Shown here piece after piece: positions 17,553 to 34,118 of a stretch of 64,000 bases of DNA. Made by a program: the position numbers and the translations under genes. The first letter of the stretch is position 1. Each line of letters opens with the position of its first letter. The notes under the pieces are model-generated. The model saw only the letters and a program-made list of their open reading frames with translations. It did not search any database and was not told the origin of the DNA. Origin of the DNA: Atlantibacter subterraneus (GTDB taxonomy: Bacteria > Pseudomonadota > Gammaproteobacteria > Enterobacterales > Enterobacteriaceae); NCBI RefSeq assembly GCF_007570865.1, contig NZ_VLPS01000007.1:186001-250000 (forward strand), written 5' to 3'.

Positions 17553-17570
17553 GTTCGCGTCTGTTAAGGT

Positions 17571-18289: not shown

Positions 18290-18311
18290 GGCGTGACGTT
18301 GGCGTCACGCC
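18290..18311. terminator. Hairpin at the end of the ABC transporter operon
   Basis: A perfect 9-bp stem GGCGTGACG / CGTCACGCC with loop TTGG, located just after the binding-protein gene (minus strand) and before the DUF2238 gene. Confidence 0.6.
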
Positions 18312-18333
18312 TGAAACGTTACATTACGCTACA

Positions 18334-19131
18334 TCAGGGACGGTTAAGGATCTCAGCGGGGATCGGTTCGCCGTGATATTTCTCATAAATGGCATTCAGT
18401 TTTCCATTTTTCAGGTTAGCCGCAATCCATTCGTCGAGTTTTGCTTTCAGCTCTGGCTCATTCTTTTTCAGGCCAATGGCTAAATCAAACACGGTTAGCG
18501 TCATTTTCGGTTCAAATGCCAGCTTCGGGTTTTGCTTGTTGATCTGATTCACCAGGGTAGCGGATGTCGCGACCGCATACGCCTGGCCGCTGACGGCTGC
18601 CGTGACCATCGTGGCATCGTCATCATAACGTTGAATAGTTACGCCATTTTTCGCGGCGTCTTTGGTCAACATCGAGTCCTGAGTCGTGCCCCGGGTCACG
18701 GTAATGGCATGGCCTTTCAGGTCGGCCCAGTCGCTGATTTTGGTGGCCGCAGGCGCGCCAATTACCGAGCGTAAGCCCGCATAGGCGCGGCTAAAATCAA
18801 TCACCTGCGCACGCTGCGGCGTGACGGAGAGCGTGGAAATCACGATATCCGCCTTGCCCGTTTGCAGGTTGGGAATACGCGTCGCGCCGGTGGTCTCAAT
18901 GAACTTCAGTTTCAGCCCCCAGTCTTTAGCCAACAGCTCGGCGGTTTCAACGTCGGAGCCAACGGGTTTCATCGACGCATCCAGCATCCCGGAAGGTGGA
19001 ATAGAGAGATCGGTGGCGACGCGGATCTCGCCCCGTTTTTGAATCTCCTCCAGAGCATTGGCCGAAACCGGGAGCGTGACAACGGCAGACAGCAGTGTGG
19101 CGAGCAGTAAGATGTTTTTTGCAGGGCTCAT
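18334..19131 (-). CDS. Polar amino-acid-type ABC transporter, periplasmic binding protein
   Basis: A 265-residue family 3 solute-binding protein with signal peptide (LLATLLSAVVTLPVSANA). The start of the mature domain, EEIQKRGEIRVATDLSIPP, and the KADIVISTLSVTPQRAQVIDFS motif are typical for binders of amino acids or related zwitterions. It is the last gene of an operon with two permeases and an ATPase. Linkage to a sugar-phosphate isomerase and a hydroxyacid dehydrogenase is unusual for a plain amino-acid importer and may point to a sugar-acid or amino-sugar derivative. Confidence 0.88.
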   Translation of the reverse strand: MSPAKNILLLATLLSAVVTLPVSANALEEIQKRGEIRVATDLSIPPSGMLDASMKPVGSDVETAELLAKDWGLKLKFIETTGATRIPNLQTGKADIVISTLSVTPQRAQVIDFSRAYAGLRSVIGAPAATKISDWADLKGHAITVTRGTTQDSMLTKDAAKNGVTIQRYDDDATMVTAAVSGQAYAVATSATLVNQINKQNPKLAFEPKMTLTVFDLAIGLKKNEPELKAKLDEWIAANLKNGKLNAIYEKYHGEPIPAEILNRP

Positions 19132-19171
19132 TATTATTCTCCTTCATGGGGATTTTGTAGGGTTGAGTGAC

Positions 19172-19897
19172 TCACAAATCGTTGGAAATAAATTCCTGTA
19201 ATGCCGCTGTGGCAGGCGTTTTCAGGATCTCGACCGTACCGCTTTCATGGACGGTTCCCTGGTGCATAAAAATAATTTTATCGGCGACCTTACGGGCGAA
19301 GTTCATTTCATGGGTCACCATAATCATGGTCATGCCGCTTCCCGCCAGGCGTTCGATGACGCGCAGCACTTCGCCGGTGAGTTTGGGATCTAATGCCGAG
19401 GTGACTTCATCAAACAACATTACTTTCGGTTTCATCGCCAGTGAACGCGCGATGGCCGCGCGTTGCTGCTGCCCGCCGGAAAGCTGCTCGGGGTAGCTGT
19501 CGGCTTTATCCGCCAGCCCCACTTGCTCCAGCACCGACAGCGCCAGCCGTCGGGCTTCCGTCTTTGCCAGCTTCTTGACGGATACCGGGCCTAAGGTGAT
19601 GTTTTGTTCAATCGTCAGATGGGGAAACAGGTTGTAACTCTGGAACACGATCCCGACATCCTGACGCAGCTTGCGCAGATCGACGTGAGGATCCTCCACT
19701 TTGTGTCCACAGACCTCAATGCTGCCGCTATTGATGGTTTCCAGCCGATCAATACAGCGCAGTGCGGTACTTTTTCCGGAACCGCTGGCGCCAATCAGTG
19801 CCACGACCTGCCCCTGATTCACTGAAAAAGAGACGTCTTTCAGTACCGGGTTATGGCCAAAGCTTTTTTGCACATTTCTCAGGGTAATGATGGACAT
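19172..19897 (-). CDS. Polar amino-acid-type ABC transporter, ATPase
   Basis: A 241-residue ATPase of the GlnQ/HisP type. Walker A is GASGSGKST (about residue 35), the signature is LSGGQQQR, Walker B is KVMLFDE, and the switch His is in MVTHEM. The ATG at 19897 is chosen because GAAGG lies 8 bases upstream; a GTG six codons earlier directly abuts the permease stop. The gene follows the second permease by 18 bases. Confidence 0.93.
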   Translation of the reverse strand: MSIITLRNVQKSFGHNPVLKDVSFSVNQGQVVALIGASGSGKSTALRCIDRLETINSGSIEVCGHKVEDPHVDLRKLRQDVGIVFQSYNLFPHLTIEQNITLGPVSVKKLAKTEARRLALSVLEQVGLADKADSYPEQLSGGQQQRAAIARSLAMKPKVMLFDEVTSALDPKLTGEVLRVIERLAGSGMTMIMVTHEMNFARKVADKIIFMHQGTVHESGTVEILKTPATAALQEFISNDL

Positions 19898-19915
19898 AAT
19901 ATTAACCTTCAGCAC

Positions 19916-20602
19916 TTAATTGATGCGTGGACTTACGGTGGGGAGAAGCTTGTTTTTCTTTTCGGGCGCGGCCTGTTCAAGACGGCGGCTCAGCACCGAT
20001 ACCGGGAAGCAAAGGCAAAAATACACTGTGGCAACAATGAGATAGATAATGAATGGCTCAAAAATAGAGTTGTTGATCAGCTGCCCGGCGCGCGCCAGTT
20101 CGACAAACCCCACCACCGAGGCCAGCGACGTGTTCTTGATGATCTGCACCGAGAACCCCACCGTAGGCGGCGTAGCCAGCTTAATGGCCTGCGGGAGGAT
20201 CACTTTAAACATGCGTTGCACGCGGGAAAGCGCCAGGCATTCAGCCGCCTCCCACTGCGCACGCGGAACCGCCTGAATACAGCCGCGCCAGATTTCGCCA
20301 AGGTAGGCGCTGGCGTAAATCGTCAGCGACACGCCTGCGGCCAGCAGGGGCGAAATAGAAAAGCCCAGTTGCGGCAGCCCGAAATAGACCATAAACATGA
20401 TGATCAGCAACGGCGTGCCCTGAATTAACTGCACCCAGGTCGCCACCACCAGACGGACGATACGCACCGGCGCAATGCGGCCAAGCGCCAGCAGGAAGCC
20501 CACTAACCCACCGCCGCCGAAGGCCATCAGCGACAGAATGGCGGTCCAGACCGCGCCTTCCAGCAGAAACTGAATGTGTGCAAAATTGAGGGAAATATTC
20601 AT
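19916..20602 (-). CDS. ABC transporter permease (HisM/GlnP type), second
   Basis: A 228-residue inner-membrane permease with about five hydrophobic segments. It carries the HisM-type segment WVQLIQGTPLLIIMFMVYFGLPQLG and the EAA-loop EAAECLALSRVQRMFKVILPQAIKLA that docks on the ATPase. It pairs with the adjacent permease at 20615 as a heterodimer. Operon position: 12 bases after the first permease gene. Confidence 0.9.
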   Translation of the reverse strand: MNISLNFAHIQFLLEGAVWTAILSLMAFGGGGLVGFLLALGRIAPVRIVRLVVATWVQLIQGTPLLIIMFMVYFGLPQLGFSISPLLAAGVSLTIYASAYLGEIWRGCIQAVPRAQWEAAECLALSRVQRMFKVILPQAIKLATPPTVGFSVQIIKNTSLASVVGFVELARAGQLINNSIFEPFIIYLIVATVYFCLCFPVSVLSRRLEQAAPEKKNKLLPTVSPRIN

Positions 20603-20614
20603 CGTCTTGCCTCC

Positions 20615-21292
20615 CTAAATCATGGTGCCAAGCCGGCGACGGCGAGGGAAAATGGCCAGCCCGAACAGCCAGAAGATCAGGCGCATCAACAGCGAGATCG
20701 CGATGTAAATGCCCGCCACAATCACGAACGTTTCAAACGGGCGGTAAGTTTCTGACTGAATAAAGTTGGCGGTCGCGGTCAGTTCTTCGGTAGAGATCTG
20801 CGACGTGACCGAGGAGGCCAGCATCAGCAAAATAAACTGGCTGGTCAGCGACGGATAAACGCGTTCGATCGCAGGCCGAAGCGCAACATGCCAGTACTGC
20901 TGCCATTTGGTTAACCCCAGCGTTTCTGCGGCTTCCCATTGCCCTTTATGCACTGACTCAAATCCGGCGCGCATGATTTCGGCGGTGTAGGCACCCACGT
21001 TAATCGTCAGCGCAATCACCGAGACGGTAAAGGCGGTAAAGGAAAAGCCCAGGCTGGAAAGGCCGAAGTAAACCAGAAAGATCTGCACCAGAAACGGCGT
21101 GTTGCGGATGGACTCGACATAGATTGCCGCGATTCTCGCAAACACTTTGGAGTGAGAGCGCCGGGCAACGGCGCAGAGCGTGCCGATGAGAAAACCCGTC
21201 ACCGTCGTCACGATGGCCAGTTGGGCGGTTAACGTTGCGCCGTCCAGTAACAGCTGCCATTGTGAAAGTATTGCTGTGAAATCGAGCATCAT
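20615..21292 (-). CDS. ABC transporter permease (HisQ/GlnP type), first
   Basis: A 225-residue permease. It carries ESIRNTPFLVQIFLVYFGL and the EAA-loop EAAETLGLTKWQQYWHVALRP. The start MM at 21292 follows GGGGCG. Membrane topology of about five segments is visible. It lies 14 bases after the dehydrogenase gene, so the uptake genes and the enzymes are one transcript. Confidence 0.9.
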   Translation of the reverse strand: MMLDFTAILSQWQLLLDGATLTAQLAIVTTVTGFLIGTLCAVARRSHSKVFARIAAIYVESIRNTPFLVQIFLVYFGLSSLGFSFTAFTVSVIALTINVGAYTAEIMRAGFESVHKGQWEAAETLGLTKWQQYWHVALRPAIERVYPSLTSQFILLMLASSVTSQISTEELTATANFIQSETYRPFETFVIVAGIYIAISLLMRLIFWLFGLAIFPRRRRLGTMI

Positions 21293-21306
21293 GACTTTCG
21301 CCCCGG

Positions 21307-22215
21307 TTAATTGGTTTTTGCGGTCTGCTGGCCGGTTAATCGGTCATAGACTCTGAAAAGCGCCTGGTTGCCGTTGGCTCCTTCCCCATAAGCCTGCGCA
21401 TTCTGGTATTGGGTGGCGACAAGGGCGGTTGCTGGGAGGGGCACCGGATGCTTCTGTGCCGCTTCCAGAACCAGACGCAGATCTTTCATCATCAAATCAA
21501 TGCGAAAACCGGCGGAGTCATCGCCTTCGATCATCGCAGGCCCCAGTTTGTCGAGCATCCAGGATGCGGCGGATCCGCCCAGCAGCACTTCACGCATTTG
21601 CGGCAAATTGATATCCCAGGCGCGGGCCAGCGCCAGCGCTTCGCAAATCGCCTGAATATTGATGCCGCAAATCAGCTGGTTACATAGCTTGACGGTTTGC
21701 CCGGCACCGGATGCGCCAACGTGATTTAACGTGGTGCCCATGGCGCGCAGATACGGCGTTGCCTGTTCAAAGCCGCTGGCTTCACCGCCTACCATGATGG
21801 TCAGGGTGCCGTTTTTGGCACCAATCGGCCCGCCGGAAACCGGCGCATCCAGCATGGTTACACCCGCCGCCGCCAGCTCCTGGCTCAGCTTACGCGTGGC
21901 TTCCGGGGCGATAGTGCTCATATCCACGTACAGTTTTCCGCGCGGCGGGACAGCTAATAGCCCTTGCGGACCGCGCACGATCTCTTCAACCTGCGGGGTG
22001 TCCGGCAGCATGGAAACTACGATATCGGCATCGCTTACTGCGGAAGGGATATCGTTAACGATTTCAACGCCGAACTGGCGCAACGCATCGCCTGCGCCGC
22101 TGACGATATCGAACGCGCGCACGGTATAGCCCGCCTGGGCGAGATTGCGCGCCATCTCACGCCCCATCACACCTAAGCCAAGAAAGCCAACGATGCCGGA
22201 AGTATCTGTTTTCAT
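21307..22215 (-). CDS. Beta-hydroxyacid dehydrogenase (GarR/HIBADH family)
   Basis: A 302-residue NAD(P)-dependent enzyme. The Rossmann motif GFLGLGVMGREMARNL is at residue 10; the substrate motif DAPVSGGPIGAKNGTL and the catalytic Lys in GAGQTVKLCNQLI are intact. Relatives reduce tartronate semialdehyde or oxidise 3-hydroxyisobutyrate, threonate and similar acids. The start at 22215 is chosen because AGGAG lies 7 bases before it and because upstream sequence would overlap rpiB. The exact substrate is unknown; the neighbouring isomerase suggests a C4 or C5 sugar acid or sugar phosphate route. Confidence 0.86.
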   Translation of the reverse strand: MKTDTSGIVGFLGLGVMGREMARNLAQAGYTVRAFDIVSGAGDALRQFGVEIVNDIPSAVSDADIVVSMLPDTPQVEEIVRGPQGLLAVPPRGKLYVDMSTIAPEATRKLSQELAAAGVTMLDAPVSGGPIGAKNGTLTIMVGGEASGFEQATPYLRAMGTTLNHVGASGAGQTVKLCNQLICGINIQAICEALALARAWDINLPQMREVLLGGSAASWMLDKLGPAMIEGDDSAGFRIDLMMKDLRLVLEAAQKHPVPLPATALVATQYQNAQAYGEGANGNQALFRVYDRLTGQQTAKTN

Positions 22216-22231
22216 CAGGATTCTCCTGCCG

Positions 22232-22678
22232 TTAGTTGTGCTGTTCGAGCTGCGCCAGTTTCTCGACGCGGCGGATGAAGTCGGCATCCTGCACAAAGGT
22301 TGCCTGCAAAAAGGCGTCAATCAGATCGCGCGCCAGCCAGGGGCCAACGATTTGCGCGCCGATACACAGCACATTGACGTCATCATGCTCAACGGACTGA
22401 TGGGCGGAATGTACGTCATGACCCACCGCGGCGCGGATGCCTTTGACTTTGTTGGCGGCAATCACCGCACCCACGCCGGTACCACACACCAGGATCCCGC
22501 GCAGACCGTTGCCTTCGCGCACTTTGTTGCACACCGCGAAAGCGATATCGGGGAAATCCACAGGCTCAGGGTTATAGCTCCCCACATCGTCAATCTGATG
22601 GCCCGCTTGCTCAAGCCACTGGATGAGCTCCTGCTTAAGGTGAAAACCTGCGTGGTCACTGCCAATTACGATCTGCAT
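22232..22678 (-). CDS. RpiB/LacAB-family sugar-phosphate isomerase
   Basis: A 148-residue isomerase. It keeps the RpiB catalytic Cys65 in LVCGTGVG and the ring-opening His98 in SVEHDDVNVL, plus the phosphate-binding GSDHAG at residues 6-11. The loop GHDVHSAHQS differs from the E. coli RpiB loop, hinting at a different sugar phosphate. Family members act on ribose 5-phosphate, allose 6-phosphate, galactose 6-phosphate or tetrulose phosphates. First enzyme gene after the regulator, 23 bases downstream of it. Confidence 0.85.
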   Translation of the reverse strand: MQIVIGSDHAGFHLKQELIQWLEQAGHQIDDVGSYNPEPVDFPDIAFAVCNKVREGNGLRGILVCGTGVGAVIAANKVKGIRAAVGHDVHSAHQSVEHDDVNVLCIGAQIVGPWLARDLIDAFLQATFVQDADFIRRVEKLAQLEQHN

Positions 22679-22701
22679 CTGCTTTTCCTTATTAAGGGGG
22701 T

Positions 22702-23445
22702 TTAGTCAGCAAAAGGTTGAGAACCCACCATGCGAATGGTGGCGCGACGACGAAAATCGGCGCCAATTTCAAAATGGCGGCTCAGTAAGTCATCGGCTTT
22801 GTCTTCGTCTCGTTCGACGATGGCGGCAAAAATGGCGCGGTGGTGATCGATGAGGAACGCTTCAATGCCTTCCACCTGAATAATCTGTTCACGTCTGTCG
22901 AGGTGGGAGCGCTGCATCAGCACGCCGATCGACTGATAAATGTTGATAAGCGTTGGCGAGCCTGATGCGTTGACGATGGTTTCATGAAAACGAAAGTCGG
23001 CTCGTCCGCCTAATTCCGGCTCATGGATGGTATCGCTGATGTCGCGCAGGCAGGCGGCCAGACGATCGTAATCACTTTGTGTGGCCCGGCGGCAGGCGAG
23101 GCGCACGGCCTGGCGTTCAATAGCGATACGCGCCTGCATCACGTCATCCACCACATTCGGCTGGTGGGCCAGCACGAAGGTGAAGAATTCACCGAAGATC
23201 GAAACGTCGGGTTTTGTCACCACCGTGCCAATGCCGTGACGGATCTCTACGGCACCAATCATCGCCAGCGCTCTGAGCGCTTCCCGCAGTACCGGGCGGC
23301 TGACGCCTAACCGGGCGGACAGTTCACGCTCCGGGAGCAAGCTGTCGCCCGCGCTCAGCGCGCCGCTTAACAACTGCTCGCGCAAAAATTTAACGACGCG
23401 GTCATGGCCGCTGCTGCTTTCCGTCTTTTCGCGTTTGATATCCAT
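22702..23445 (-). CDS. GntR-family regulator, FadR/FCD subgroup
   Basis: A 247-residue regulator with an N-terminal winged helix (residues 12-75: LLPERELSARLGVSRPVLREAL) and a C-terminal FCD ligand domain whose metal-binding residues are likely in DFRFHETIV, FLIDHHRAIF and LSRHFEIG. It heads the operon of isomerase, dehydrogenase and ABC genes and probably represses it until a sugar or organic acid binds. A symmetric site TGGTAATACCA, 24 bases upstream of the ATG, fits its autoregulation. Confidence 0.9.
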   Translation of the reverse strand: MDIKREKTESSSGHDRVVKFLREQLLSGALSAGDSLLPERELSARLGVSRPVLREALRALAMIGAVEIRHGIGTVVTKPDVSIFGEFFTFVLAHQPNVVDDVMQARIAIERQAVRLACRRATQSDYDRLAACLRDISDTIHEPELGGRADFRFHETIVNASGSPTLINIYQSIGVLMQRSHLDRREQIIQVEGIEAFLIDHHRAIFAAIVERDEDKADDLLSRHFEIGADFRRRATIRMVGSQPFAD

Positions 23446-23468
23446 ATGATTTTACCGGTGGTCTTAAG

Positions 23469-23479
23469 TGGTAATACCA
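23469..23479. promoter_or_regulatory. Candidate GntR/FadR-type operator
   Basis: TGGTAATACCA is a perfect dyad (TGGT-N3-ACCA), the half-site arrangement used by FadR/PdhR-type regulators. It lies 24-34 bases upstream of the gntR start, where a bound repressor would block its own operon. Confidence 0.65.
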
Positions 23480-23617
23480 ATGGTAGATATGTTAATGAAT
23501 TATTAATGTGATGTTGATCGATAATTAACCTGATGGTTCTGTGAGCGGGATTGCAATTATTGATTTGACTGACTGGAGGCGAGGAGATCTACAGGATCGT
23601 GAGATCAGATTTTTTAG

Positions 23618-23696
23618 CTAACGCGAATGCCAACGGCCAGGAATTAACACCGAGAACATCGAACCCGGCAGGGCGCATAGCATATCGGCCTGGGTA
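23618..23696 (-). pseudogene. Decayed 3' fragment of a DUF2238 membrane protein gene
   Basis: On the minus strand this stretch reads TQADMLCALPGSMFSVLIPG, then RWHSR and a stop. It matches the C-terminus of the intact DUF2238 protein at 17598 (TQSDMLCALLGAMISVFILG, PWHSR). By hand alignment 62 of 74 bases agree between 17618-17691 and 23623-23696. Only about 26 codons remain, there is no start, and the surrounding bases are non-coding. Both copies face the same way and bracket the GntR/ABC operon. Confidence 0.8.
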
Positions 23697-23697
23697 A

Positions 23698-23822
23698 AGA
23701 GTGCCGACGATTGCATCGTACTTATTCCCGATAATAATAAAACGCAGGTGCTGCATGAAGAGTTAAAACAGGCAAAGGCGGCAGTGAAAGAGATAAGGCA
23801 GAGGGTATTAAGTTCGCTTTGA
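23698..23822 (+). pseudogene. Possible C-terminal remnant of an unknown gene
   Basis: An open stretch of about 41 codons without a start ends at TGA 23820-23822; it would encode an amphipathic, helix-like tail (VLHEELKQAKAAVKEIRQRV). It abuts the DUF2238 fragment and precedes the tRNA terminator. It could be the tail of a gene truncated by past recombination beside tRNA-Phe, or chance. I do not recognise it. Confidence 0.3.
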
Positions 23823-23842
23823 AAATATTATGAAAATACAAA

Positions 23843-23869
23843 GCAAAAACCCGCCTTTCGGCGGGTTTT
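23843..23869. terminator. Terminator of tRNA-Phe
   Basis: Stem AACCCGCC / GGCGGGTT with loop TTTC lies just downstream of the tRNA (minus strand), with runs of A on the left and T on the right. Confidence 0.85.
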
Positions 23870-23877
23870 CTGAATTT

Positions 23878-23953
23878 TGGTGCCCGGACTCGGAATCGAA
23901 CCAAGGACACGGGGATTTTCAATCCCCTGCTCTACCGACTGAGCTATCCGGGC
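23878..23953 (-). tRNA. pheV: tRNA-Phe (anticodon GAA)
   Basis: The minus strand reads GCCCGGATAGCTCAGTCGGT at the 5' end, has anticodon loop TTGAAAA (GAA), TTCGATTC in the T-arm, and an encoded CCA end at 23878-23880. The acceptor stem GCCCGGA / TCCGGGC pairs perfectly. Its position beside yqgA and speC corresponds to E. coli pheV, a frequent integration site for islands at its 3' end. No integrase or duplicated tRNA end was found nearby. Confidence 0.97.
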
Positions 23954-24057
23954 AACGGGGCGCATTAAACCCGATTCACCGTACCGCGTCAACGAAATTT
24001 CCGCCGATTGCGTTCAGATGCGCATTAAGCCGCCAGGTTGACGACAATCCCACCACT

Positions 24058-24768
24058 TTACCCGCCGAAGAAGTGCATCCACAGCGCAGATATCGGCATG
24101 CTGATAATCAGCGCAGGCAGCATATTTACCACCGGGAACATCTTGATGCCGCAAATACGCAGCCCGGTCGCCAGCAGCAGTACGCCACCGACAGCGGTGA
24201 AATCGGCCATCATCGCGGGGGTGGTGAGCGGCAGAATAATCGCTGCGCACCAGGCGAGAGTTAACTGGATTGCCACCAGCGGAAACGCGATAAACGCTAC
24301 CGCTACGCCAAGCGTGGTAGCAAAAATCATCGCGGTAAAGAAATCGAGAAAGGATTTGGCGATCAGAATGGTCGGATCGCCAGTCATGCCTTCCTGCATC
24401 GCGCCGAACACGCCGGTACCGCTGGCGCAAAACAGAATCAGAATGGCGACGAAGTTCTGAATAAACGCGTCATGACCGCCATTTTTACCGCCTTTGTCCA
24501 GTAGCGAACGCGCTTTGCCCGCGGCAGCGTTGATGCCGCGCTCCATACAGCACAGCTCGCCGATAATGGTGCCAAGCAGGGTAGAGAGCACCATTACCGG
24601 CAGGTTGGCGCATTTAACGATCAGCAACACGCCAATGCCGAGAGAAGCCAGCCCGAAGATTGACGGCATCGTCACCCGCAGCCGCTCCGGTAATTTCGAA
24701 CCCAGCAGCGCGCCCAGCAATCCGCCAATCAGTACGGCGGCACCATTGATAAAAGGACCAGTAACCAT
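24058..24768 (-). CDS. yqgA: YqgA family membrane protein (DUF554)
   Basis: A 236-residue inner-membrane protein close to E. coli YqgA. It is built from about seven hydrophobic segments and short Gly-rich turns (GLASLGIGVLLIVKCANLPV, ILFCASGTGVFGAMQEGMTG, VGGVLLLATGLRICGIKMFPV). The family function is not settled; it is sometimes suggested to be a transporter. It lies between tRNA-Phe and speC as in E. coli, divergent from speC. Confidence 0.93.
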   Translation of the reverse strand: MVTGPFINGAAVLIGGLLGALLGSKLPERLRVTMPSIFGLASLGIGVLLIVKCANLPVMVLSTLLGTIIGELCCMERGINAAAGKARSLLDKGGKNGGHDAFIQNFVAILILFCASGTGVFGAMQEGMTGDPTILIAKSFLDFFTAMIFATTLGVAVAFIAFPLVAIQLTLAWCAAIILPLTTPAMMADFTAVGGVLLLATGLRICGIKMFPVVNMLPALIISMPISALWMHFFGG

Positions 24769-25018
24769 GTGTTCTCCCGATGCGTCTTTGCGCGCAAAAA
24801 GCCGTCTTATTCTCTGTGCGGTGAATGCGTTTTCATGCGCTAATTATGCGTGTTAATGTAATGCGCCTGCGGATAAATGCGTTGCGCGGCCTGATAATAT
24901 CAATAATTTAACTGAATAATCTTTGCCGAATTATGCAGTTTATCGATTGCGCCTTGCGCGGGCCGGGCAAAGCTGCCATGATTGCGCGAATTTTCCGCTT
25001 CCCTGTCACGAGGCTTGT

Positions 25019-25123
25019 ATGATGAGGTCGTTTTCCGCGCCTGTCACTTACAGACTGCGTTCTGCCACGCAGCCGCTCGCCCGTGCTCTCAGTTGGTTAT
25101 TGCCTACACTCACCATGCGGTGA
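25019..25123 (+). CDS. Candidate 34-residue leader peptide upstream of speC
   Basis: A 34-codon frame begins ATGATG preceded by GAGG at 5 bases, a good ribosome site, and ends 165 bases before the speC start. The peptide starts MMRSFSAPVTYRLR, is basic, and contains five Arg. It is followed by a stable hairpin. The speF ornithine decarboxylase gene of enterobacteria is controlled by an Arg-containing leader peptide, so a similar device here is conceivable. This could also be chance; no homologue is known to me. Confidence 0.3.
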   Translation: MMRSFSAPVTYRLRSATQPLARALSWLLPTLTMR

Positions 25124-25145
25124 GGTCAACGCACGCTCACTCCAG

Positions 25146-25186
25146 GACATCAGTAAGACCAGATGCATTCTGTTTTTACTGATGTC
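25146..25186 (+). promoter_or_regulatory. Leader hairpin upstream of speC
   Basis: A perfect 11-bp inverted repeat, GACATCAGTAA / TTACTGATGTC, with a 19-base loop lies about 100 bases before the speC start. It has no T-run, so it is not a simple terminator; it may shape or stabilise the leader mRNA. Confidence 0.5.
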
Positions 25187-25288
25187 AGGCGGTTGGAGCT
25201 GTTTCCAGTTTCACCAAAGACGCCATACCGGGATGAACTCCCTGTGCTTGCCTGTTGGCACTTACTCCCTTTAAGGCTTTTGTTGCTT

Positions 25289-27424
25289 ATGAAATTGTTA
25301 AAAATCGCAGCCAGTCACGACATTGTCGACGCGCTTTCTACCCATCGCGAGGTGGTGACGCTGGATAATACTGACTTTACCGATGTCGCCGCCGTGGTGC
25401 TGACCGTTGCCGATACCCGCAGCGGCATTCTGGCGCTGCTGAAACGCAGCGGATTTAATTTGCCGGTGTTTGTACTGAGCGAAACGCCGCTGGCGCTGGA
25501 CGCGATTACCGGCGTGATTGACGGTAAAGCCCAGTCGTTCCTCGAGCTGGAAGCCGCCGCCACGCGCTATGAAGAGAACCTGCTGCCGCCGTTTTTCGAT
25601 ACCCTGTATCAGTATGTCGAAATGCAAAACAGCACCTTCGCCTGCCCAGGGCATCAGCATGGCGAGTTCTTTAAAAAGCATCCGGCAGGGCGTCAGTTTT
25701 ACGATTTCTTCGGCGAGAACGTGTTTCGCGCCGATATGTGCAATGCCGATGTAAAGCTGGGTGATTTGCTGATCCACGAAGGCTCGGCCAAACATGCGCA
25801 GAAGTTCGCGGCCAAAGTGTTTAACGCCGATAAAACCTATTTCGTGCTCAACGGCACCTCCGCCGCCAATAAAGTGGTGACCAACGCGCTGCTGACCCGT
25901 GGCGACCTGGTGCTGTTCGACCGCAACAACCACAAATCCAACCATCACGGCGCGCTGATTCAGGCGGGTGCCACGCCGGTCTATCTGGAAGCGGCGCGCA
26001 ACCCCTTCGGCTTTATCGGCGGGATTGATGAGCACTGTTTTGACGAGGCGTATCTGCGCGAGTTAATCCGCGAAGCTGAGCCAGCGCGTGCTGATGAACC
26101 GCGTCCGTTCCGCCTGGCGGTGATCCAGCTTGGCACCTACGATGGCACTATTTATAACGCCCGCCAGGTGATCGATAAAATCGGCCATCTGTGCGACTAC
26201 ATCCTGTTTGACTCCGCCTGGGTGGGCTATGAGCAGTTTATTCCGATGATGGCCGACTGCTCGCCGCTGCTGCTGGAACTTAACGAAAACGATCCGGGGA
26301 TTTTTGTCACTCAGTCGGTTCACAAGCAGCAGGCCGGTTTTTCCCAAACCTCGCAAATCCACAAAAAGGATAATCACCTGCGCGGCCAGGCACGGTTTTG
26401 CCCGCACAAGCGCCTGAATAACGCGTTTATGCTGCATGCCTCTACCAGCCCGTTTTATCCGCTGTTTGCCGCGCTGGACGTCAACGCCAAGATCCACGAG
26501 GGCGAGAGCGGTCGCCGCCTGTGGGCCGAGTGCGTGGAGCTGGGCATCGAGGCGCGTAAAGCCATTCTCAGCCAGTGTTCGATGATCGCACCTTTCGTGC
26601 CGCCGATGGTGGAGGGTAAACCGTGGCAGGATCATCCCACCGCGCAGATTGCCAGCGAACGCCGTTTCTTCAGCTTTATCCCGGGTGAGCGCTGGCACGG
26701 TTTTGACGGCTATGCGGATGAGCAATATTTTGTTGATCCCTGCAAGCTGCTGCTCACCACGCCGGGTATCGACGCACAAACCGGCGAGTATGCCGAATTC
26801 GGCGTGCCGGCCACCATTCTGGCGAACTACCTGCGCGAAAACGGCCTGGTGCCGGAGAAAGCCGATCTCAACTCGATTCTGTTCCTGCTGACCCCGGCGG
26901 AAAGCCCACAGAAAATGGCCCATCTGGTAGCGCTGCTGGCGCAGTTCGAGCGCCACATCGAACAGGATTCGCCGCTGTCAGAAGTGCTGCCGACCATCTG
27001 GCAAAAATATTCGCTGCGCTACAAGGGCTATACGTTGCGCCAGCTGTGCCAGGAGATGCACGATCTGTACGTCAGCTTTAACGTTAAAGACCTGCAAAAA
27101 GCGATGTTCCGCAAAGCCGAGTTGCCGCCTGTGGTGATGAATCCGCAGGACGCCAACCGTGAGTTTATCCGTGGCAACGTGGAGCTGGTACGCATCAGCG
27201 AAGCCGCAGGGCGCATCGCGGCGGAGGGGGCGCTGCCGTATCCGCCAGGCGTACTGTGCGTGGTGCCGGGCGAAGTATGGGGTGGGGCGGTGCAGCGTTA
27301 CTTCCTGGCGCTGGAAGAGGGCGTGAATTTGCTGCCAGGCTTCTCGCCGGAACTTCAGGGGGTGTACAGCGAAACCGATGCCGACGGGATTAAACGGCTC
27401 TACGGAAATGTGCTGAAAGCCTAA
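25289..27424 (+). CDS. speC: Constitutive ornithine decarboxylase SpeC
   Basis: A 711-residue PLP enzyme that decarboxylates ornithine to putrescine. The PLP Lys is in SVHKQQAGFSQTSQIHKK. An N-terminal wing domain (1-107) precedes the core, which includes FACPGHQHGEFFKKHPAG. The start ATG at 25289 gives exactly the E. coli SpeC length and N-terminal pattern; in-frame sequence 42 codons upstream is not conserved. The product feeds SpeD/SpeE encoded near the right end of the window. It converges with nupG across a terminator. Confidence 0.97.
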   Translation: MKLLKIAASHDIVDALSTHREVVTLDNTDFTDVAAVVLTVADTRSGILALLKRSGFNLPVFVLSETPLALDAITGVIDGKAQSFLELEAAATRYEENLLPPFFDTLYQYVEMQNSTFACPGHQHGEFFKKHPAGRQFYDFFGENVFRADMCNADVKLGDLLIHEGSAKHAQKFAAKVFNADKTYFVLNGTSAANKVVTNALLTRGDLVLFDRNNHKSNHHGALIQAGATPVYLEAARNPFGFIGGIDEHCFDEAYLRELIREAEPARADEPRPFRLAVIQLGTYDGTIYNARQVIDKIGHLCDYILFDSAWVGYEQFIPMMADCSPLLLELNENDPGIFVTQSVHKQQAGFSQTSQIHKKDNHLRGQARFCPHKRLNNAFMLHASTSPFYPLFAALDVNAKIHEGESGRRLWAECVELGIEARKAILSQCSMIAPFVPPMVEGKPWQDHPTAQIASERRFFSFIPGERWHGFDGYADEQYFVDPCKLLLTTPGIDAQTGEYAEFGVPATILANYLRENGLVPEKADLNSILFLLTPAESPQKMAHLVALLAQFERHIEQDSPLSEVLPTIWQKYSLRYKGYTLRQLCQEMHDLYVSFNVKDLQKAMFRKAELPPVVMNPQDANREFIRGNVELVRISEAAGRIAAEGALPYPPGVLCVVPGEVWGGAVQRYFLALEEGVNLLPGFSPELQGVYSETDADGIKRLYGNVLKA

Positions 27425-27454
27425 AAAAATGCCGACCCTGTGGTCGGCATTTTT
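27424..27454. terminator. Bidirectional terminator between speC and nupG
   Basis: Stem AATGCCGACC / GGTCGGCATT with loop CTGT, flanked by A-run and T-run, between convergent genes. Confidence 0.9.
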
Positions 27455-27470
27455 ACATTGTAACGCGCTA

Positions 27471-28727
27471 TCAGGCGCTGTGCGGAACGCCTGCAACCGG
27501 CGCTTTTACGTGTTTGTACTTGAACAGCACCACGAATGCGAAGGCCAGAACCAGTGAGTAGCCCGCGAAGATCAGCCACACGGTTTGCCAGTCGGTAATG
27601 CCGTTCAGAGTATATTGCTCAACCACTTTACCGCTCACGATGCCGCCGAGGATACAGCCGAAACCGTTAGTCATCATCAGGAACATACCCTGGGCGCTGG
27701 CGCGGATGGCCGGTTTCACTTCCTGTTCAACAAACATCGAACCGGAGACGTTAAAGAAGTCGAAGGCGCAGCCGTAAACGATCATCGACAGAACCAGCAA
27801 CACGGTGCCCATCGGGCTCGGATCGCCGTAGGCGAACAGGCCGAAGCGCAGCATCCAGGCGATGATACTGATCAGCATGACTTTCTTGATGCCGTAACGG
27901 CTCAGGAAGAACGGAATGGTCAGGATGAACACGGTTTCGGAAATCTGCGAAATCGACATCAGCACCGAGGCGTGTTGCACAATAAAGCTGCCAGAGAACA
28001 GCGGGTCCTGATCGAAGCTGTGCAGGAAGGTGTTACCAAACATATTGGTAATTTGCAGTTCTGCACCCAGCAGCATGGAGAAGATAAAGAAAATCGCCAT
28101 GCGCTTGTTTTTCAACAGCGCGAACGCGTCCAGGCCCAGCATGGTCGACCAGCTCTGGTTTTTCTGCTGGTTAGACACCGGCACGTGCGGCAGGGTCAGG
28201 GTAAACAGCACCAGCACCAGAGAGAGCGCCGCGCCGATATACAGCTGCATATGGCTCAGTTCGAAGCCGGAGAAACTCACCGCCCACATCGCCAGAATAA
28301 AGCCGATGGTGCCCCAGATACGGATAGGCGGGAAGTCGGTAACGATATCTCGCCCGGCCTGCTGCAAACGGTAGTAGGAGATGGTATTAACCAGGCCCAG
28401 CGTCGGCATATAGGCCAGCGAGTTAATGAGGATCACCACAAACATCTCGGTGGGCGTGGTGACGTTGGCCGCCATAAACAGCGTCGCAGCGCCGACCAGA
28501 TGACAGAACGCGTACACCCATTTAGCGCTGATCCACTTATCCGCCACAATCCCCAGCAGCGTCGGCATAAACACCGCCGCGATCCCGAGTGAGCTGTACA
28601 CCGCGCCAATAGACGCGCCGTCGAACTTCAGGGTAACGAACATGTAGGAGCCGAGCGTGGTCAGCCAGCTTCCCCACAAGCAGAACTGCAGAAACGAGAG
28701 CACTTTCAGCTGCAGCTTATAATTCAT
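27471..28727 (-). CDS. nupG: Nucleoside/proton symporter NupG
   Basis: A 418-residue major facilitator protein with 12 predicted membrane segments; it imports purine and pyrimidine nucleosides using the proton gradient. Family signatures are LQFCLWGSWLTTLGSYM at the first helix and DFFNVSGSMFVEQEV in the second half. The ATG at 28727 gives the E. coli NupG length and start (MNYKLQLKVLSFLQF); 16 further codons upstream are not conserved. The 5' region (28728-28931) probably holds the CRP/CytR-type control known for nupG, but I cannot place sites with confidence. Confidence 0.96.
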   Translation of the reverse strand: MNYKLQLKVLSFLQFCLWGSWLTTLGSYMFVTLKFDGASIGAVYSSLGIAAVFMPTLLGIVADKWISAKWVYAFCHLVGAATLFMAANVTTPTEMFVVILINSLAYMPTLGLVNTISYYRLQQAGRDIVTDFPPIRIWGTIGFILAMWAVSFSGFELSHMQLYIGAALSLVLVLFTLTLPHVPVSNQQKNQSWSTMLGLDAFALLKNKRMAIFFIFSMLLGAELQITNMFGNTFLHSFDQDPLFSGSFIVQHASVLMSISQISETVFILTIPFFLSRYGIKKVMLISIIAWMLRFGLFAYGDPSPMGTVLLVLSMIVYGCAFDFFNVSGSMFVEQEVKPAIRASAQGMFLMMTNGFGCILGGIVSGKVVEQYTLNGITDWQTVWLIFAGYSLVLAFAFVVLFKYKHVKAPVAGVPHSA

Positions 28728-28931
28728 GTTATTTTCCTCACACGAGAAACCAAAATTATGTTGAATTAAAAACATTGAAGGTTGTGAATTGTGCGGATTT
28801 TAGCATTTCAGCCACCAGGCTTTATGTTACCTACGACAAAATTCTGCAAAAAAAACCGTCTTGCAGATACGAAATGTGATGAGGTTAATGGTTTCGAATG
28901 AAGAAATGCCACTTCATGCCAGGCGGGGCAC

Positions 28932-28966
28932 AAAAAAATATCCCTCACGGAGAATGTGAGGGATAT
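28932..28966 (-). terminator. Terminator downstream of mltC
   Basis: A 10-bp stem TATCCCTCAC / GTGAGGGATA lies beyond the mltC stop; the minus strand then has a run of seven T (A-run at 28932-28938). Confidence 0.85.
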
Positions 28967-28981
28967 AACATTTAACAGGAA

Positions 28982-30061
28982 TTACTTACGGCGATAACTC
29001 TTTTGTGCGGTATCTACTTTATACAGATAACGACGCGACTCAGCAGATGGATGGCGCGTGGTCAGGGTTTCATACACATCCCCCGGCTGCATGCTGTTAA
29101 TGATGCTGGCCGCCTTGATTTTATCGCTTGAGAACACGCGTAACACGCTGCCCGCCCCGCCGTTGTAGGCGGTGATCACCGCGTATCGTCGTGAGGTCGG
29201 ATTCTGAATACCGCCAAGATAGACATTATTCAGCATCGCCAGGTAGGCCGTACCGGTGTCGATATTGCTTTGCGGATCGAACAGGTAGCTGCGGCTCGGC
29301 GTGCCCGATTTACCCTGCGAACGGAACACGTCTTTACCCGCGGTATGCTGCACCACCTGCATCAGCCCCAGCGCGTCAGAACGGCTGACTGCATACGGGT
29401 TAAAGGAGGATTCGGTCTGCATAATCGCCAGGATCAGCGACTCATCCACTCCATATTTGCGCGCAGCCTGGCGCACCATGCCCACATACTTATGGGCACG
29501 CTTATCAAGGTGGTTCGGCACCAGATTAATAGTGATGCTGTAGATCACGCGTAGACCGTTGCTGCGGCTCTTCATACGGGTTTGCAGCAGGTAGTCGGCA
29601 AAACGCGCCGCGCGCCACTGCCAGCGGATAGGCTCACCGGTGTTATCCACCACCTGCCCATACAGGAACGGCTGTTTGGAAATGGGTATGTCGTTCACAT
29701 CGGAATAGAGATCGATAGAACCCGGATCGTCGCCCATCAGCAGGGTGGTGATGATCGCCTGGCGCAAGCGGGCGGCGGGATCGGTGCCCGCGATGGTCTC
29801 GACCGTAATCGTACCCTGGTCAAAGTTGATGTGGCTGCGGGTCTGGTAGCCATCGGTGTACTTAACGTAGTCTTTCGGCCCGGCGATCAGAACTTCATTA
29901 AATCCCCAGATATTCTCAATGTTATGGGCGAACTGCCCCATCAGGATGTCAAAACCGTTGGTATCTTTTTCCAGTTCCGGATTATAGCTTTCCGTTTTTT
30001 TACTGGAGCAGGAGATGAGTAACGGCGCAATCAAAGCCAGCGCGAGTAATTTTTTCATCAT
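28982..30061 (-). CDS. mltC: Membrane-bound lytic murein transglycosylase C
   Basis: A 359-residue outer-membrane lipoprotein (lipobox LLISC, Cys about 18) that cleaves peptidoglycan glycan strands to 1,6-anhydro products. An N-terminal DUF3393 domain (about 30-190) is followed by an SLT domain with catalytic Glu in [13 protein letters not shown] and the motifs [13 protein letters not shown] and AYNGGAG. Length equals E. coli MltC. The start could be either of two adjacent ATGs (30061 or 30058). Its anhydromuropeptide products are the substrates of AmpD encoded at 41028. Confidence 0.95.
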
Positions 30062-30101
30062 TAAGGGAGTGCGTTGTGTTATTGAAATTGTGTTGTCAAA
30101 A

Positions 30102-30118
30102 AAGGGCCAAAGGCCCTT
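30102..30118 (-). terminator. Hairpin at the yggX stop
   Basis: A 7-bp stem AAGGGCC / GGCCCTT with loop AAA overlaps the last codon and stop of yggX; the minus strand continues with T residues. It may attenuate transcription into mltC. Confidence 0.6.
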
Positions 30119-30392
30119 ATTGTTGTTCTGGCGGCGTATAGCCTTCGATGTGTACGTCTTTCCCTTCGAACAGGAAGTTAATCATTTCCTGCTCCAGCAG
30201 CTTGCGGTGCTCCGGGTTCATCATGTTGAGTTTCTTTTCGTTAATCAGCATGGTTTGCTTGGTCTGCCACAGCTTCCACGCCTCTTTGGAAATCTCGTTA
30301 TAGATGCGCTTACCCAAATCGCCCGGATAGAGTTGGAAATCCTGGCCTTCGGCGTCGCGCTGCAGGTAGGTACAAAAAATCGTTCTGCTCAT
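30117..30392 (-). CDS. yggX: Fe(II)-trafficking/oxidative protection protein YggX
   Basis: A 91-residue cytoplasmic protein beginning [20 protein letters not shown] with the conserved Cys7, then [17 protein letters not shown]. YggX protects iron-sulfur clusters from superoxide and helps iron handling. Its start lies two bases beyond the mutY stop, so it is co-translated with mutY, whose product carries an iron-sulfur cluster. Length and order match E. coli mutY-yggX-mltC. Confidence 0.95.
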
Positions 30393-30394
30393 CG

Positions 30395-31480
30395 TTAGTC
30401 CTCACTATCGTGGCGAAGGGGTTGTGTCACAACCGGCTCCGCATGTAATTGTTGCAACAAACGCTCAACCGGGGCGGCAAGCCCAACGGATGGCGGCTGT
30501 GCCAGGTTATACCAGAGTGCGCTCTCTTCCTCCACGCAAGACGCCTGCGAGGACACAGAAAGCCACATGGGTATGATATCCAGATGGAAGTGGCTGAAAG
30601 TATGGCGGAACGCGTTAAGCTGCGTCAGAGTATCGGCCTTAATGTTACGTTTCGCCAGCCACTCGCGCAGGCTCTGTTCGCTGTCAAACTGCGGGAAACA
30701 AAACAGCCCGCCCCATAACCCCACCGGCGGGCGTTGGGTCAGGCGCACGGTGTTGTCCTGCTGCATCAGCAGAAAATAGCCGACTTTCTCCGGCAGCACC
30801 TGCTTCGGTTTTTTACCCGGATAACGGGCCCAGCTTTGCGTGGCATAGGCCACACAGCCGAGCTGGAGCGGGCAAATCTCGCACTTCGGGCGCGAGCGGG
30901 TGCAGACCATCGCGCCTAAATCCATCATCGCCTGATTGAAGCGCTCCACGCCTTTGGCTGGGGTAACGGCTTCGCTCAGCGACCAGAGTTTTTTCTCTAC
31001 CTCTTTCTTGCCCGGCCAGCCTTCCACGGCGTAGCAGCGCGCCAGCACGCGCTTGACGTTGCCATCCAGAATCGGAAAGTGCTGGCCCAGCGACAGTGAC
31101 AAAATTGCGCCTGCGGTGGAACGGCCCACGCCGGGCAGCGCAGCGACGTCATCAAAGGTCTGCGGGAATATGCCGCCGTACTGTTCGGCGACCATTTTCG
31201 CCGCTTTATGCAGGTTGCGGGCGCGGGCGTAATAACCGAGCCCGGTCCACAGGTGCAGCACTTCGTCCAGCGGCGCGTTAGCCAGATCGGTGACGCCAGG
31301 GAAGCGCGCCATAAAGCGGGTAAAATAAGGAATAACCGTGGCAACTTGCGTTTGTTGCAGCATCACTTCAGACAGCCATACTTTGTAAGGCGTTTTTTCG
31401 ATCTGCCAGGGGAGGGTCTTACGCCCATATTTGTCGTACCAGTCGAGCACCTGGCGAGAAAATTGCTGCGCTTGCATCAT
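30395..31480 (-). CDS. mutY: Adenine DNA glycosylase MutY
   Basis: A 361-residue base-excision enzyme that removes A mispaired with 8-oxoguanine. The catalytic Glu is in [11 protein letters not shown], the helix-hairpin-helix is [13 protein letters not shown] with Asp in [12 protein letters not shown], and four Cys ligands of the [4Fe-4S] cluster occur as [17 protein letters not shown]. The C-terminal Nudix-like domain that recognises 8-oxoG includes [11 protein letters not shown]. It is functionally related to MutT encoded at 33460, which cleans 8-oxo-dGTP from the pool. Confidence 0.96.
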
Positions 31481-31630
31481 GAACGCGTGGCATCCTGCAT
31501 AGAGTTTCAGGGCCCAGATTGCAGCACAGAGCGAAAAGGCTGTAAACCGGAACTTTCCTGTGCTTGCATCCCAGGACTATCTTTGGATAATGCCGGTTTG
31601 CTTTCCCATTCACTGACACAGATTGAAACC

Positions 31631-32350
31631 ATGAATAACGACGTCATTTCACCGGAATTTGATGAAAGCGGCCGCCCGCTGCGCCGCATCCGCAGCTTTG
31701 TCCGCCGTCAGGGACGCCTGACTAAAGGCCAACAGCACGCGCTGGATAACTACTGGCCGGTGATGGGCGTTGAGTTCACTCCTGCACCGCTCGACTTTAC
31801 CGCGCTGTTTGGCCGCACTGCGCCGGTTACCCTGGAAATTGGCTTTGGTATGGGTGCCTCGCTGGTGGCGATGGCAAAAGCCAATCCTCACCAGGATTTT
31901 CTGGGCATTGAAGTGCATTCCCCGGGCGTGGGCGCGTGCCTGAGCCTGGCGCATGAAGAGGGCGTGGAAAACCTGCGCGTGATGTGCCATGACGCGGTCG
32001 AAGTGCTGCAAACCATGATCCCGGATAATTCCCTGAATATGGTGCAGCTGTTCTTCCCGGATCCGTGGCATAAAGCGCGTCATAACAAGCGCCGTATCGT
32101 CCAGGCTCCGTTTGCGGAACTGGTGAAGAGCAAATTAAAGCTCGGCGGCGTGTTCCATATGGCGACCGACTGGGAACCTTATGCCGAACATATGCTCGAA
32201 GTGATGTCGTCTGTTGACGGTTATCAGAACCAGTCTGAAAACAACGACTACGTACCGCGCCCGGAATCGCGTCCGGTAACCAAATTTGAACAGCGTGGCC
32301 ATCGTCTTGGTCACGGCGTATGGGACTTAATGTTCGAGAGGGTGAAATAA
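31631..32350 (+). CDS. trmB: tRNA (guanine-N7)-methyltransferase TrmB
   Basis: A 239-residue SAM-dependent enzyme that makes m7G46 in tRNA. The SAM motif is [15 protein letters not shown] and the catalytic region is [30 protein letters not shown] follows near the end. The ATG at 31631 gives exactly the E. coli length; the frame is open far upstream across the mutY promoter, but that part is not conserved. It overlaps the yggL start by one base (TAATG). Confidence 0.96.
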
Positions 32351-32676
32351 TGGCAAAGAACCGCAGCCGTCGTTTGCGTAAAAAGATGCATATCGATGAG
32401 TTTCAGGAGTTGGGATTCTCGGTAGCCTGGCGTTTCCCGGAAGGCACCAGCGAAGAGGTGGTGGATAAAACCGTTGATGACCTGATCAACGAAGTGATCG
32501 AGCCAAACGGTCTGGCCTTTGACGGCAGTGGTTATCTCGCCTGGGAAGGACTGATCTGCAAGCAGGAAATCGGTAAGTGCACCGAAGAAGATCAAGCGCT
32601 GGTACGTAAGTGGCTTGAAGATCGCAAGCTCGAAGAGATCCGCTTGAGCGATCTTTTCGACGTGTGGTGGGATTGA
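32350..32676 (+). CDS. yggL: YggL family protein (50S ribosome-associated)
   Basis: A 108-residue protein starting [20 protein letters not shown], a strongly basic N-terminus, followed by an acidic body (EEVVDKTVDDLINEVI). YggL (DUF469) has been linked to the large ribosomal subunit. It is translationally coupled to trmB. The start at 32350 matches the E. coli protein and avoids a longer overlap. Confidence 0.94.
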   Translation: MAKNRSRRLRKKMHIDEFQELGFSVAWRFPEGTSEEVVDKTVDDLINEVIEPNGLAFDGSGYLAWEGLICKQEIGKCTEEDQALVRKWLEDRKLEEIRLSDLFDVWWD

Positions 32677-32686
32677 GTTAATTGAT

Positions 32687-32712
32687 AACGGGCCGAGATA
32701 TTGGCCCGTTTT
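32687..32712 (+). terminator. Terminator after yggL
   Basis: Stem AACGGGCC / GGCCCGTT with an 8-base loop followed by T residues; it separates trmB-yggL from yggN. Confidence 0.8.
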
Positions 32713-32730
32713 GCTTTATAGGGAGTCGAT

Positions 32731-33447
32731 ATGATGCGTAAAGCGCTTCTGGGCGCACTGCTGGTAACGGCAATGCAGGCTCAGGCCGAATACAAATGCA
32801 GCGTCACGCCGCGTGACGATGTGGTGCTCAGCCCGCAAACCGTGCAGGTGGTTGGCGAAAACGGCAACCTGGTGATTGGCCCCGACGGCAGCGTACAGTT
32901 TAACGGCCAGCAGAAAAACCTGACCGCCGCGCAGCGTCAGCAGGCGCTGAACTATCAGAAAGCCTTACGGACCGATTTACCGTGGATCCAGCAGGGCGCG
33001 TTAAGCCGCGTAGAGAAAGGACGCGTGGCGCTGGACCGGGTAATTACTCAGGAAGTCGGTGCAAGCAGCAATATGCGCAGTCGCCTGACCAGTCTTGATG
33101 CCCAACTCAAAACCCAAATGAACCGCATTATTGAGCAGCGCAGCGACGGACTGACGTTCCACTATAAAGCTATCGACCAGGTGCGTGCCGATGGTCAGCA
33201 GCTGGTAAACCAGGCGATGGGCGGCATCCTGCAGGACAGCATCAACGAAATGGGTGCCAAAGCGGTGCTGAAGGGCGGCGGTAATCCGTTGCAGGGCGTG
33301 CTGGGCAGCCTGGGCGGATTGCAGACGGCGATCCAGAACGAGTGGAAAACCCAGGAGCAGGACTTCCAGCAGTTTGGTCGTGATGTGTGCCAGCGCGTGA
33401 TTTCCCTGGAAGATCAGCGCACGAAGCTGGTTACCAGCCTGAAATAA
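32731..33447 (+). CDS. yggN: Periplasmic DUF2884 protein YggN
   Basis: A 238-residue protein with a signal peptide (ALLGALLVTAMQAQA). The mature part is largely helical with GENGNLVIGPDGSVQFNG near its start and Cys in the N- and C-terminal parts. Function is not established. It is the last gene of the block that matches the E. coli 66-67 min region; in E. coli ansB lies beyond it, but here mutT follows 12 bases later in the same direction, so mutT may be read from the yggN promoter. Confidence 0.93.
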   Translation: MMRKALLGALLVTAMQAQAEYKCSVTPRDDVVLSPQTVQVVGENGNLVIGPDGSVQFNGQQKNLTAAQRQQALNYQKALRTDLPWIQQGALSRVEKGRVALDRVITQEVGASSNMRSRLTSLDAQLKTQMNRIIEQRSDGLTFHYKAIDQVRADGQQLVNQAMGGILQDSINEMGAKAVLKGGGNPLQGVLGSLGGLQTAIQNEWKTQEQDFQQFGRDVCQRVISLEDQRTKLVTSLK

Positions 33448-33459
33448 AGCGATCTGAAT

Positions 33460-33861
33460 ATGAAAAAACTACAGATTGCCGTGGGTATCATCCGCAACGC
33501 TGATAACGCGATTTTTATTACCCGTCGCGCCGCTGATGCCCACATGGCGAACAAGTGGGAGTTTCCCGGCGGCAAAATTGAAGCCGGCGAAACCCCGGAG
33601 CAGGCGCTGATCCGCGAACTGCAGGAAGAAGTCGGTATCGCCGCCGAACAGCCGTCACTTTACGAAACGCTGGAGTACGCCTTCCCGGACCGGCATATCA
33701 CGCTGTGGTTTTACCTGGTCGAAGCGTGGCAGGGAGAGCCCTGGGGGAAAGAGGGGCAGCCAGGGGAATGGATTGCCTCCAGTGCGCTGGACGCGGCGGC
33801 GTTTCCACCTGCCAATGAGCCCGTGGTGGCACGCCTGATTGCGGATGCCCGCGCGCGTTAA
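33460..33861 (+). CDS. mutT: 8-oxo-dGTP diphosphatase MutT
   Basis: A 133-residue Nudix hydrolase that destroys 8-oxo-dGTP before it is incorporated into DNA. The Nudix box [20 protein letters not shown], continuing EVGI, is complete (Gly, Glu, REXXEE pattern). Start [13 protein letters not shown] matches the family. In E. coli mutT follows secA in an operon; here secA is absent and yggN sits immediately upstream with no promoter-sized gap. Expression must come from yggN transcription or a promoter within yggN. Confidence 0.96.
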
Positions 33862-33886
33862 GTTACCCGCGTATTAACAAACGGAG

Positions 33887-33922
33887 CCGGGGCGGTATTG
33901 TTGAATACCGCCCCGGTTTTTT
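33887..33922. terminator. Strong terminator between mutT and yacG
   Basis: A perfect 13-bp stem CCGGGGCGGTATT / AATACCGCCCCGG followed by six T, between convergent genes. Confidence 0.92.
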
Positions 33923-33923
33923 A

Positions 33924-34118
33924 TTAGCGATCCTGTTCGCTCCACTCGTCGCTGTCGTTTAAATCGCTCTGGCTGGGGATGCGTTTTTCTTCTGCCGCCC
34001 ACTCGCCTAAGTCGATCAACTGACAGCGTTTAGAGCAAAACGGGCGAAACGGGCTGGTTTCGTTCCAGATAACCGGTTTGCCGCAGGTCGGGCAGTTTAC
34101 CGTGGTGGTTTGCGTCAT
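33924..34118 (-). CDS. yacG: DNA gyrase inhibitor YacG (zinc finger)
   Basis: A 64-residue protein with a four-Cys zinc site: CPTCGKP near the N-terminus and [13 protein letters not shown]. The acidic C-terminal tail ([13 protein letters not shown]) completes the family pattern. YacG binds GyrB and inhibits gyrase. AGGAGG precedes the start. It is the last gene of the coaE-zapD-yacG operon. Confidence 0.95.

Follow-up and report, generated by a model that had tools for sequence, protein, structure and literature searches.

The gene order of this stretch is best explained by two large inversions centred on oriC, which very probably became fixed in the ancestor of Atlantibacter and whose net effect was that each replichore received a mid-arm block of the other. 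The inner inversion would have cut one arm in the yggN-hemW interval and the other in the secA-mutT interval; for the outer inversion the intervals would be hmp-glnB and mscK-ybaM. The moved blocks would have kept their direction of replication and, roughly, their distance from the origin. The window, that is the whole stretch of 64,000 nucleotides that was analysed (G000:C13:186001-250000, in a draft genome of 18 contigs), holds one of the four joints, yggN/mutT. Its features are as follows.

23874-33447: left block, tRNA-Phe (pheV position) to yggN; K-12 3110.4 to 3101.3 kb by tblastx, read away from oriC
23878-23953: tRNA-Phe, 9.5 kb ahead of the inner joint
32687-32710, plus strand: terminator-like hairpin in the yggL/yggN interval, 10-pair stem and T-rich tail (fold z -3.4)
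32731-33447, plus strand: yggN, which closes the left block, 76% identical to K-12 YggN
33448-33459, plus strand: joint of the putative inner inversion, a 12-bp gap with no terminator called and no repeat
33460-33861, plus strand: mutT (8-oxo-dGTP diphosphatase), which opens the right block, 78% identical to K-12 MutT, ORF intact
33887-33916, plus strand: hairpin 3' of mutT, 13-nt perfect arms followed by a T-run
33460-63998, plus strand: right block, mutT, yacG, zapD, coaE, guaC, hofC and on to the speD/speE region; K-12 111.2 to 135.9 kb

The break in gene order at yggN/mutT is real, since the K-12 coordinate switches exactly between the two genes, from 3101 to 111 kb (tblastx against stretches of K-12 MG1655). 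The match descends from 3110.4 to 3101.3 kb over window positions 23874-33456 and ascends from 111.2 to 135.9 kb over 33460-63998, the latter with no jump of more than 2.5 kb between pieces; positions 117-4978 map to 3150-3139 kb. An earlier note on this DNA had placed mutT 12 bases behind yggN and had proposed that both blocks keep the direction away from oriC; the ORF ends and the K-12 coordinates bear this out. It had also assigned everything on the left to 66-67 min of the K-12 map and everything on the right to 2.4-2.8 min. "Everything" is too strong for the left side, because between about 5.0 and 23.9 kb nothing matches the compared K-12 stretches except for a 48% metC-like piece at 13997-14878. 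These approximately 19 kb ahead of tRNA-Phe (5000-23870) may be an insert beside the tRNA gene. On the minus strand, 45225-45350 matches the sRNA family tp2 of Rfam (RF02030, 104.9 bits).

The remaining joints were mapped in a complete Atlantibacter genome, G002 (4,553,773 bp), with markers derived from K-12 proteins. The blocks were placed by mapping G002 pieces to three complete relatives, after which K-12 genes fixed the outer joints; for the 800-1200 kb part, 16 of 20 pieces were used, and the last four were omitted (L145, which is repetitive, L146, L147 and L148). The inner joints lie at 805 kb (yggN/mutT) and 3748 kb (hemW/secA), and the outer joints at 1195.8 kb (mscK/hmp) and 3410.0 kb (ybaM/glnB), with the genes facing each other at both outer joints. 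With joints marked by slashes, the order from the origin is oriC, fusA, rpoD, yggN / mutT, aceE ... mscK / hmp, glyA ... gyrA, pykF, dif, and it continues from dif through topA, gltA, dnaX, ybaM / glnB, purL ... recA, metK, hemW / secA, ftsZ, dnaK, purA and rpoB. Both reciprocal joints of each inversion are therefore present in one chromosome. The mutT-mscK block of about 390 kb, which extends the right block of the window as far as mscK, has switched replichores, and so has the glnB-hemW block of about 338 kb. The direction of replication is kept in the moved blocks, as seen by tblastx in the window and by spaced markers in G002. The origin and terminus segments retain their K-12 relation, save for a likely small inversion around dif. 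The dif site itself (G002:C1:2384169-2384196, minus strand) has the opposite strand relative to pykF/topA when compared with G027, which suggests a further inversion at the terminus.

The genes hemW (3747.3 kb) and secA (3750.5 kb) face each other, 73 bp apart in G002 and 71 bp apart in the window's genome as judged by ORF ends, and a single hairpin is found at this joint in Atlantibacter. The reciprocal junction of secA that the earlier note had predicted for a complete genome thus exists, but its partner is hemW and not ansB; the note had named ansB or its neighbours. ansB/secA was rejected as the reciprocal joint, ansB being located at 3523 kb in G002. No gene at the joints appears cut, and the gene order of G002 at the joints is that of the draft Atlantibacter genomes. 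Several reading frames of G002 are split, namely secA, murC and yggS (L166, G002:C1:3740001-3760000) as well as dnaX, probably by sequencing errors.

All four joints recur in the genus, each on one contig in 5/5 Atlantibacter genomes. yggN/mutT is one continuous match in all five, hemW/secA and ybaM/glnB are present in all five, and mscK/hmp was found in G002 and the four others. Outside the genus no match spanned yggN/mutT; 27 of 55 genomes gave any match, in some just a fragment with the Nudix motif (eight candidates scored per genome), so that none of these 27 genomes shares the junction. Similarly, the mscK/hmp adjacency was absent from every other-genus genome with matches to both halves, 38 in all (119 family genomes searched, two candidates each), the mscK half being a short piece, maybe a paralogue, in seven of the 38. 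In 80 named loci, the best 80 of 187, the first gene recognised behind yggN is hemW (37), ansB (17), mutT (3) or a yggM-like gene (4), and the others have the contig end (3) or none of the first K-12 genes tried (16). Where ansB is next to yggN, as it is in E. coli K-12 too, hemW comes after ansB. The three mutT loci among these 80 are two from Atlantibacter and one labelled Citrobacter freundii. The closest named YggN relatives are those of Atlantibacter hermannii and Atlantibacter sp. RC6 (98%), followed by that of a record labelled Citrobacter freundii M-21 (94%). This record (NZ_JAALBX010000001.1; L183/L037, G001) has all four joints and is assigned by the genome collection to the genus of the window; its label looks wrong.

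The Atlantibacter order is derived when set against the state in its relatives. Of seven complete genomes from other genera, five are K-12-like at the inversion sites: the marker order of G027, G005, G021 and G013 is that of K-12, and so is that of G015 save for a topA/pykF exchange near the terminus. The other two, G018 and G024, carry other rearrangements, hence large inversions are not rare in Enterobacteriaceae. In G018 yggN and hemW are also separated (G018:C1, 3491 and 867 kb). G098, from another genus, has a large change of order at the outer markers (G098:C1, mscK at 4507 kb and hmp at 4637 kb).

The breakpoints are well equidistant from oriC for the inner inversion and loosely so for the outer one. 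For K-12, the distances to oriC come to 825.0 and 826.8 kb at the inner breakpoints and to 1238.8 and 1205.8 kb at the outer ones. In the relatives, where mnmG served to place oriC, the two arms differ by 6.7 (G027), 82.8 (G005), 63.2 (G021), 53.5 (G013) and 24.1 kb (G015) for the inner pair, and by 147.8 (G027), 68.6 (G005), 176.1 (G021) and 40.9 kb (G013) for the outer pair, with no hmp match listed in G015. If the second break were placed at random on arms of about 2.3 Mb, the chance of its landing no more than 83 kb from the mirror point would be approximately 7%, and no more than 2 kb from it approximately 0.2%. In present-day G002 (where a blastn search with K-12 oriC puts the origin near 4525.9 kb), the inner joints are 833 and 778 kb and the outer joints 1224 and 1116 kb from oriC, on arms that measure 2412 and 2142 kb up to dif. 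The weaker symmetry of the outer pair, with a discrepancy of as much as 176 kb in G021, and the unequal present-day distances in G002 speak against the scheme of two inversions, as does the fact that no remaining repeat, rRNA or tRNA marks a recombination substrate at the joints.

Among the alternatives, the one that survives best, improbable as it is, holds that the two blocks were exchanged between the arms in a single complex event with four breaks at once. It would fit the result that no intermediate with a single joint pair was found, and both pairs are common to 5/5 genomes and so arose on the same branch. However, it requires four simultaneous breaks, and symmetric inversions are, as stated in part of the text of PMC9584773, the predominant structural variation within species. 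We infer two inversions, in either order; their order and separateness are presumed, since neither was found in a genome lacking the other.

It is very improbable that a single inversion flipped the ori-containing yggN-secA segment and left the rest unchanged. The inner joint pair alone is the expected product of such an event, and its near-equal arms agree with the single equal-armed inversion spanning oriC of the earlier note. However, gyrA and not dnaX stands past the mutT-mscK block in G002, while dnaX and ybaM adjoin glnB-purL and thereby the recA-metK-hemW block. The outer joints, present in 5/5 Atlantibacter genomes, refute a single inversion, and the earlier proposal has to be extended to two nested origin-symmetric inversions.

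A chimeric assembly or contamination, also raised earlier (the chimera), is hardly credible and can be excluded in practice. The window's genome is an 18-contig draft and frames are split in secA, dnaX and murC of G002, but all four joints occur in five assemblies, of which the other four are 82-96% identical to the window DNA around the inner joint, and both sides fit one reciprocal scheme. The capture of mutT alone beside yggN, with nothing in its favour beyond the local joint, is refuted by approximately 30 kb past mutT that are collinear with K-12 (approximately 390 kb in G002 by spaced markers) and by the adjacency of secA and hemW.

The two oriC-centred inversions could have come about through the joining of breaks at two replication forks or through recombination between repeats that have since been lost. 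No repeat shared among the four joints was found at E<=0.05, nor one common to the yggN-hemW and secA-mutT intervals of G021 at the same threshold. The same repeat was thus not detected at both breakpoints, a result with which a decayed repeat is compatible. Searches for rRNA and tRNA families gave no match in the six stretches of G002 that surround three of the joints, and the only rRNA or tRNA gene of the window is tRNA-Phe, at 9.5 kb from the inner joint. rRNA, tRNA and repeats were accordingly set aside as candidate substrates at the joints. Inversions of this kind, symmetric about the origin and without detected repeats, bear on whether fork-linked joining or homologous repeats are the source of such events.

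At the inner joint, the sequence context of mutT differs from that in relatives. In K-12 the secA/mutT interval contains a strong hairpin followed by a T-run (fold -20.4 kcal/mol, z -3.8), and a similar hairpin was recognised by eye in five relatives, while the Atlantibacter yggN/mutT interval is without any such hairpin. The earlier note had mutT removed from the secA operon. It is correct that mutT no longer adjoins secA, but the old link was overstated because mutT already stands behind a terminator-like hairpin in K-12 and the five relatives. What has changed at mutT is the loss of this hairpin and the closeness to yggN. No terminator-like site was called between yggN and mutT. Before mutT, the five Atlantibacter genomes have anti-Shine-Dalgarno energies of -1.5 to -2.6 kcal/mol, as against -3.1 to -6.1 kcal/mol in K-12 and five relatives, and the weaker values would fit translation of mutT coupled to that of yggN. 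mutT is predicted to be transcribed with yggN at present and to be translated in part by coupling to it. The yggN-mutT pair may need its own promoter, given the terminator-like hairpin ahead of yggN; a sigma-70 promoter scan of 31600-34000 returned one site, 3' of mutT, against 1.1 expected. An 8-nt stem formed by the joint and mutT codons 4-7, with the mutT start codon in its loop (33448-33500), was seen in three of the five genomes. It was rejected as a conserved control since the 8-pair stem of G000, G003 and G004 is absent from G001 and G002. The moved mutT offers a ready case of a mutation-avoidance gene whose expression context was altered by inversion.

The gap between yggN and hemW is broken in other lineages as well, with different partners. 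In Buttiauxella, leuD (K-12 79 kb) follows yggN in nine loci, which was confirmed on a longer stretch of one genome. In Siccibacter the partner is satP (K-12 10 kb, two loci), and in Entomohabitans and Shimwellia it is fau (K-12 3056.5 kb), as a longer Entomohabitans stretch confirms; leuD, satP and fau, like mutT, come directly behind yggN. Enterobacter sp. kpr-6 (L103) has yggN, a yggM-like gene and then rluA-rapA (K-12 60 kb), and Enterobacter sp. ENT03 (L109) has rluA after yggN with further genes between. Loci broken at this gap (window equivalent 33447) include L093/L112, L040-L042 and relatives, L090/L097 and L103/L109.

A tree of six neighbouring genes was built from 47 hand-chosen loci, which gave 45 tips after L174 and L176, two short loci from G005 and G021, dropped out; it includes five of the nine Buttiauxella loci, and four tips with no assigned partner were left free. 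The mutT, leuD, satP, fau and rluA types form five clades (support 0.994-1.0), and parsimony on this tree requires five changes. The nearest sister is of the hemW type for the mutT clade (L051, node 0.906), the leuD clade (0.999, together with L038, whose partner state was left free) and the rluA clade (L108, 0.998). The sister groups of the satP clade (21 tips, 0.979) and the fau clade (29 tips, 0.954) consist mostly of hemW-type tips but include other rearranged clades. The K-12 distances of the right-arm partners from oriC are 725.7 (satP), 775.5 (rluA), 794.6 (leuD) and 826.8 kb (mutT), close to the mirror position of yggN, whose own distance is 825.0 kb. The fau joint joins genes of the same arm and by itself is no origin-symmetric inversion.

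Seven of eight distinct ancestral break sites lie between convergent genes, the exception being secA-mutT, while convergent pairs make up 35 of 257 adjacent pairs (13.6%) in the K-12 stretches read (binomial 6.1e-6). This comparison is post hoc, manual typing of the K-12 pairs left out IS and tiny genes, and four of the eight sites were deduced from one side only (setA-leuD, mog-satP, fau-serA and djlA/yabQ-rluA). Selection against broken genes or operons would yield such a bias without a hot spot. Tentatively, the yggN-hemW gap could be a repeat-free region that breaks recurrently, about five times in distinct lineages of Enterobacteriaceae. It would be either a point of fork arrest or breakage or a site that tolerates breaks, since it lies between the ends of two genes and no gene begins in it. 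The two options can be told apart: if only tolerance were at work, other convergent ends at equal distance should be used equally often. This recurrence is the part most worth following. In addition, the four joints provide exact gene-order markers for Atlantibacter, as in the record labelled Citrobacter freundii.

In the library searched we found no paper, judged by titles and abstracts, on this rearrangement in Atlantibacter or on breaks at yggN. Inversions between rRNA operons or IS copies can span the origin. The Atlantibacter inversions span it too, but unlike these they gave no rRNA or tRNA family match (six G002 stretches, three joints) and no common repeat at the joints. Origin-symmetric (X-type) inversions were reportedly described by Eisen et al. 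in 2000. The Atlantibacter case resembles these in being centred on oriC, with arms of similar length, reciprocal joints, and leading-strand direction and origin distance kept. It departs from the typical X-type in that two nested, genus-wide events result in a net exchange of mid-arm blocks. Within species, symmetric inversions are the predominant structural variant according to part of the text of D'Iorio and Dewar (2022, PMC9584773), where the same repeat is said to flank both sides, and symmetric inversion is a frequent, clade-dependent bias in the corresponding portion of Repar and Warnecke (2017, PMC5850607). Unlike the within-species inversions of that part of PMC9584773, the Atlantibacter joints have no detected repeats, which may have decayed since the joints are old. 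Origin-symmetric inversion is thus a known process, common in bacteria, of which Atlantibacter is a new genus-wide instance.
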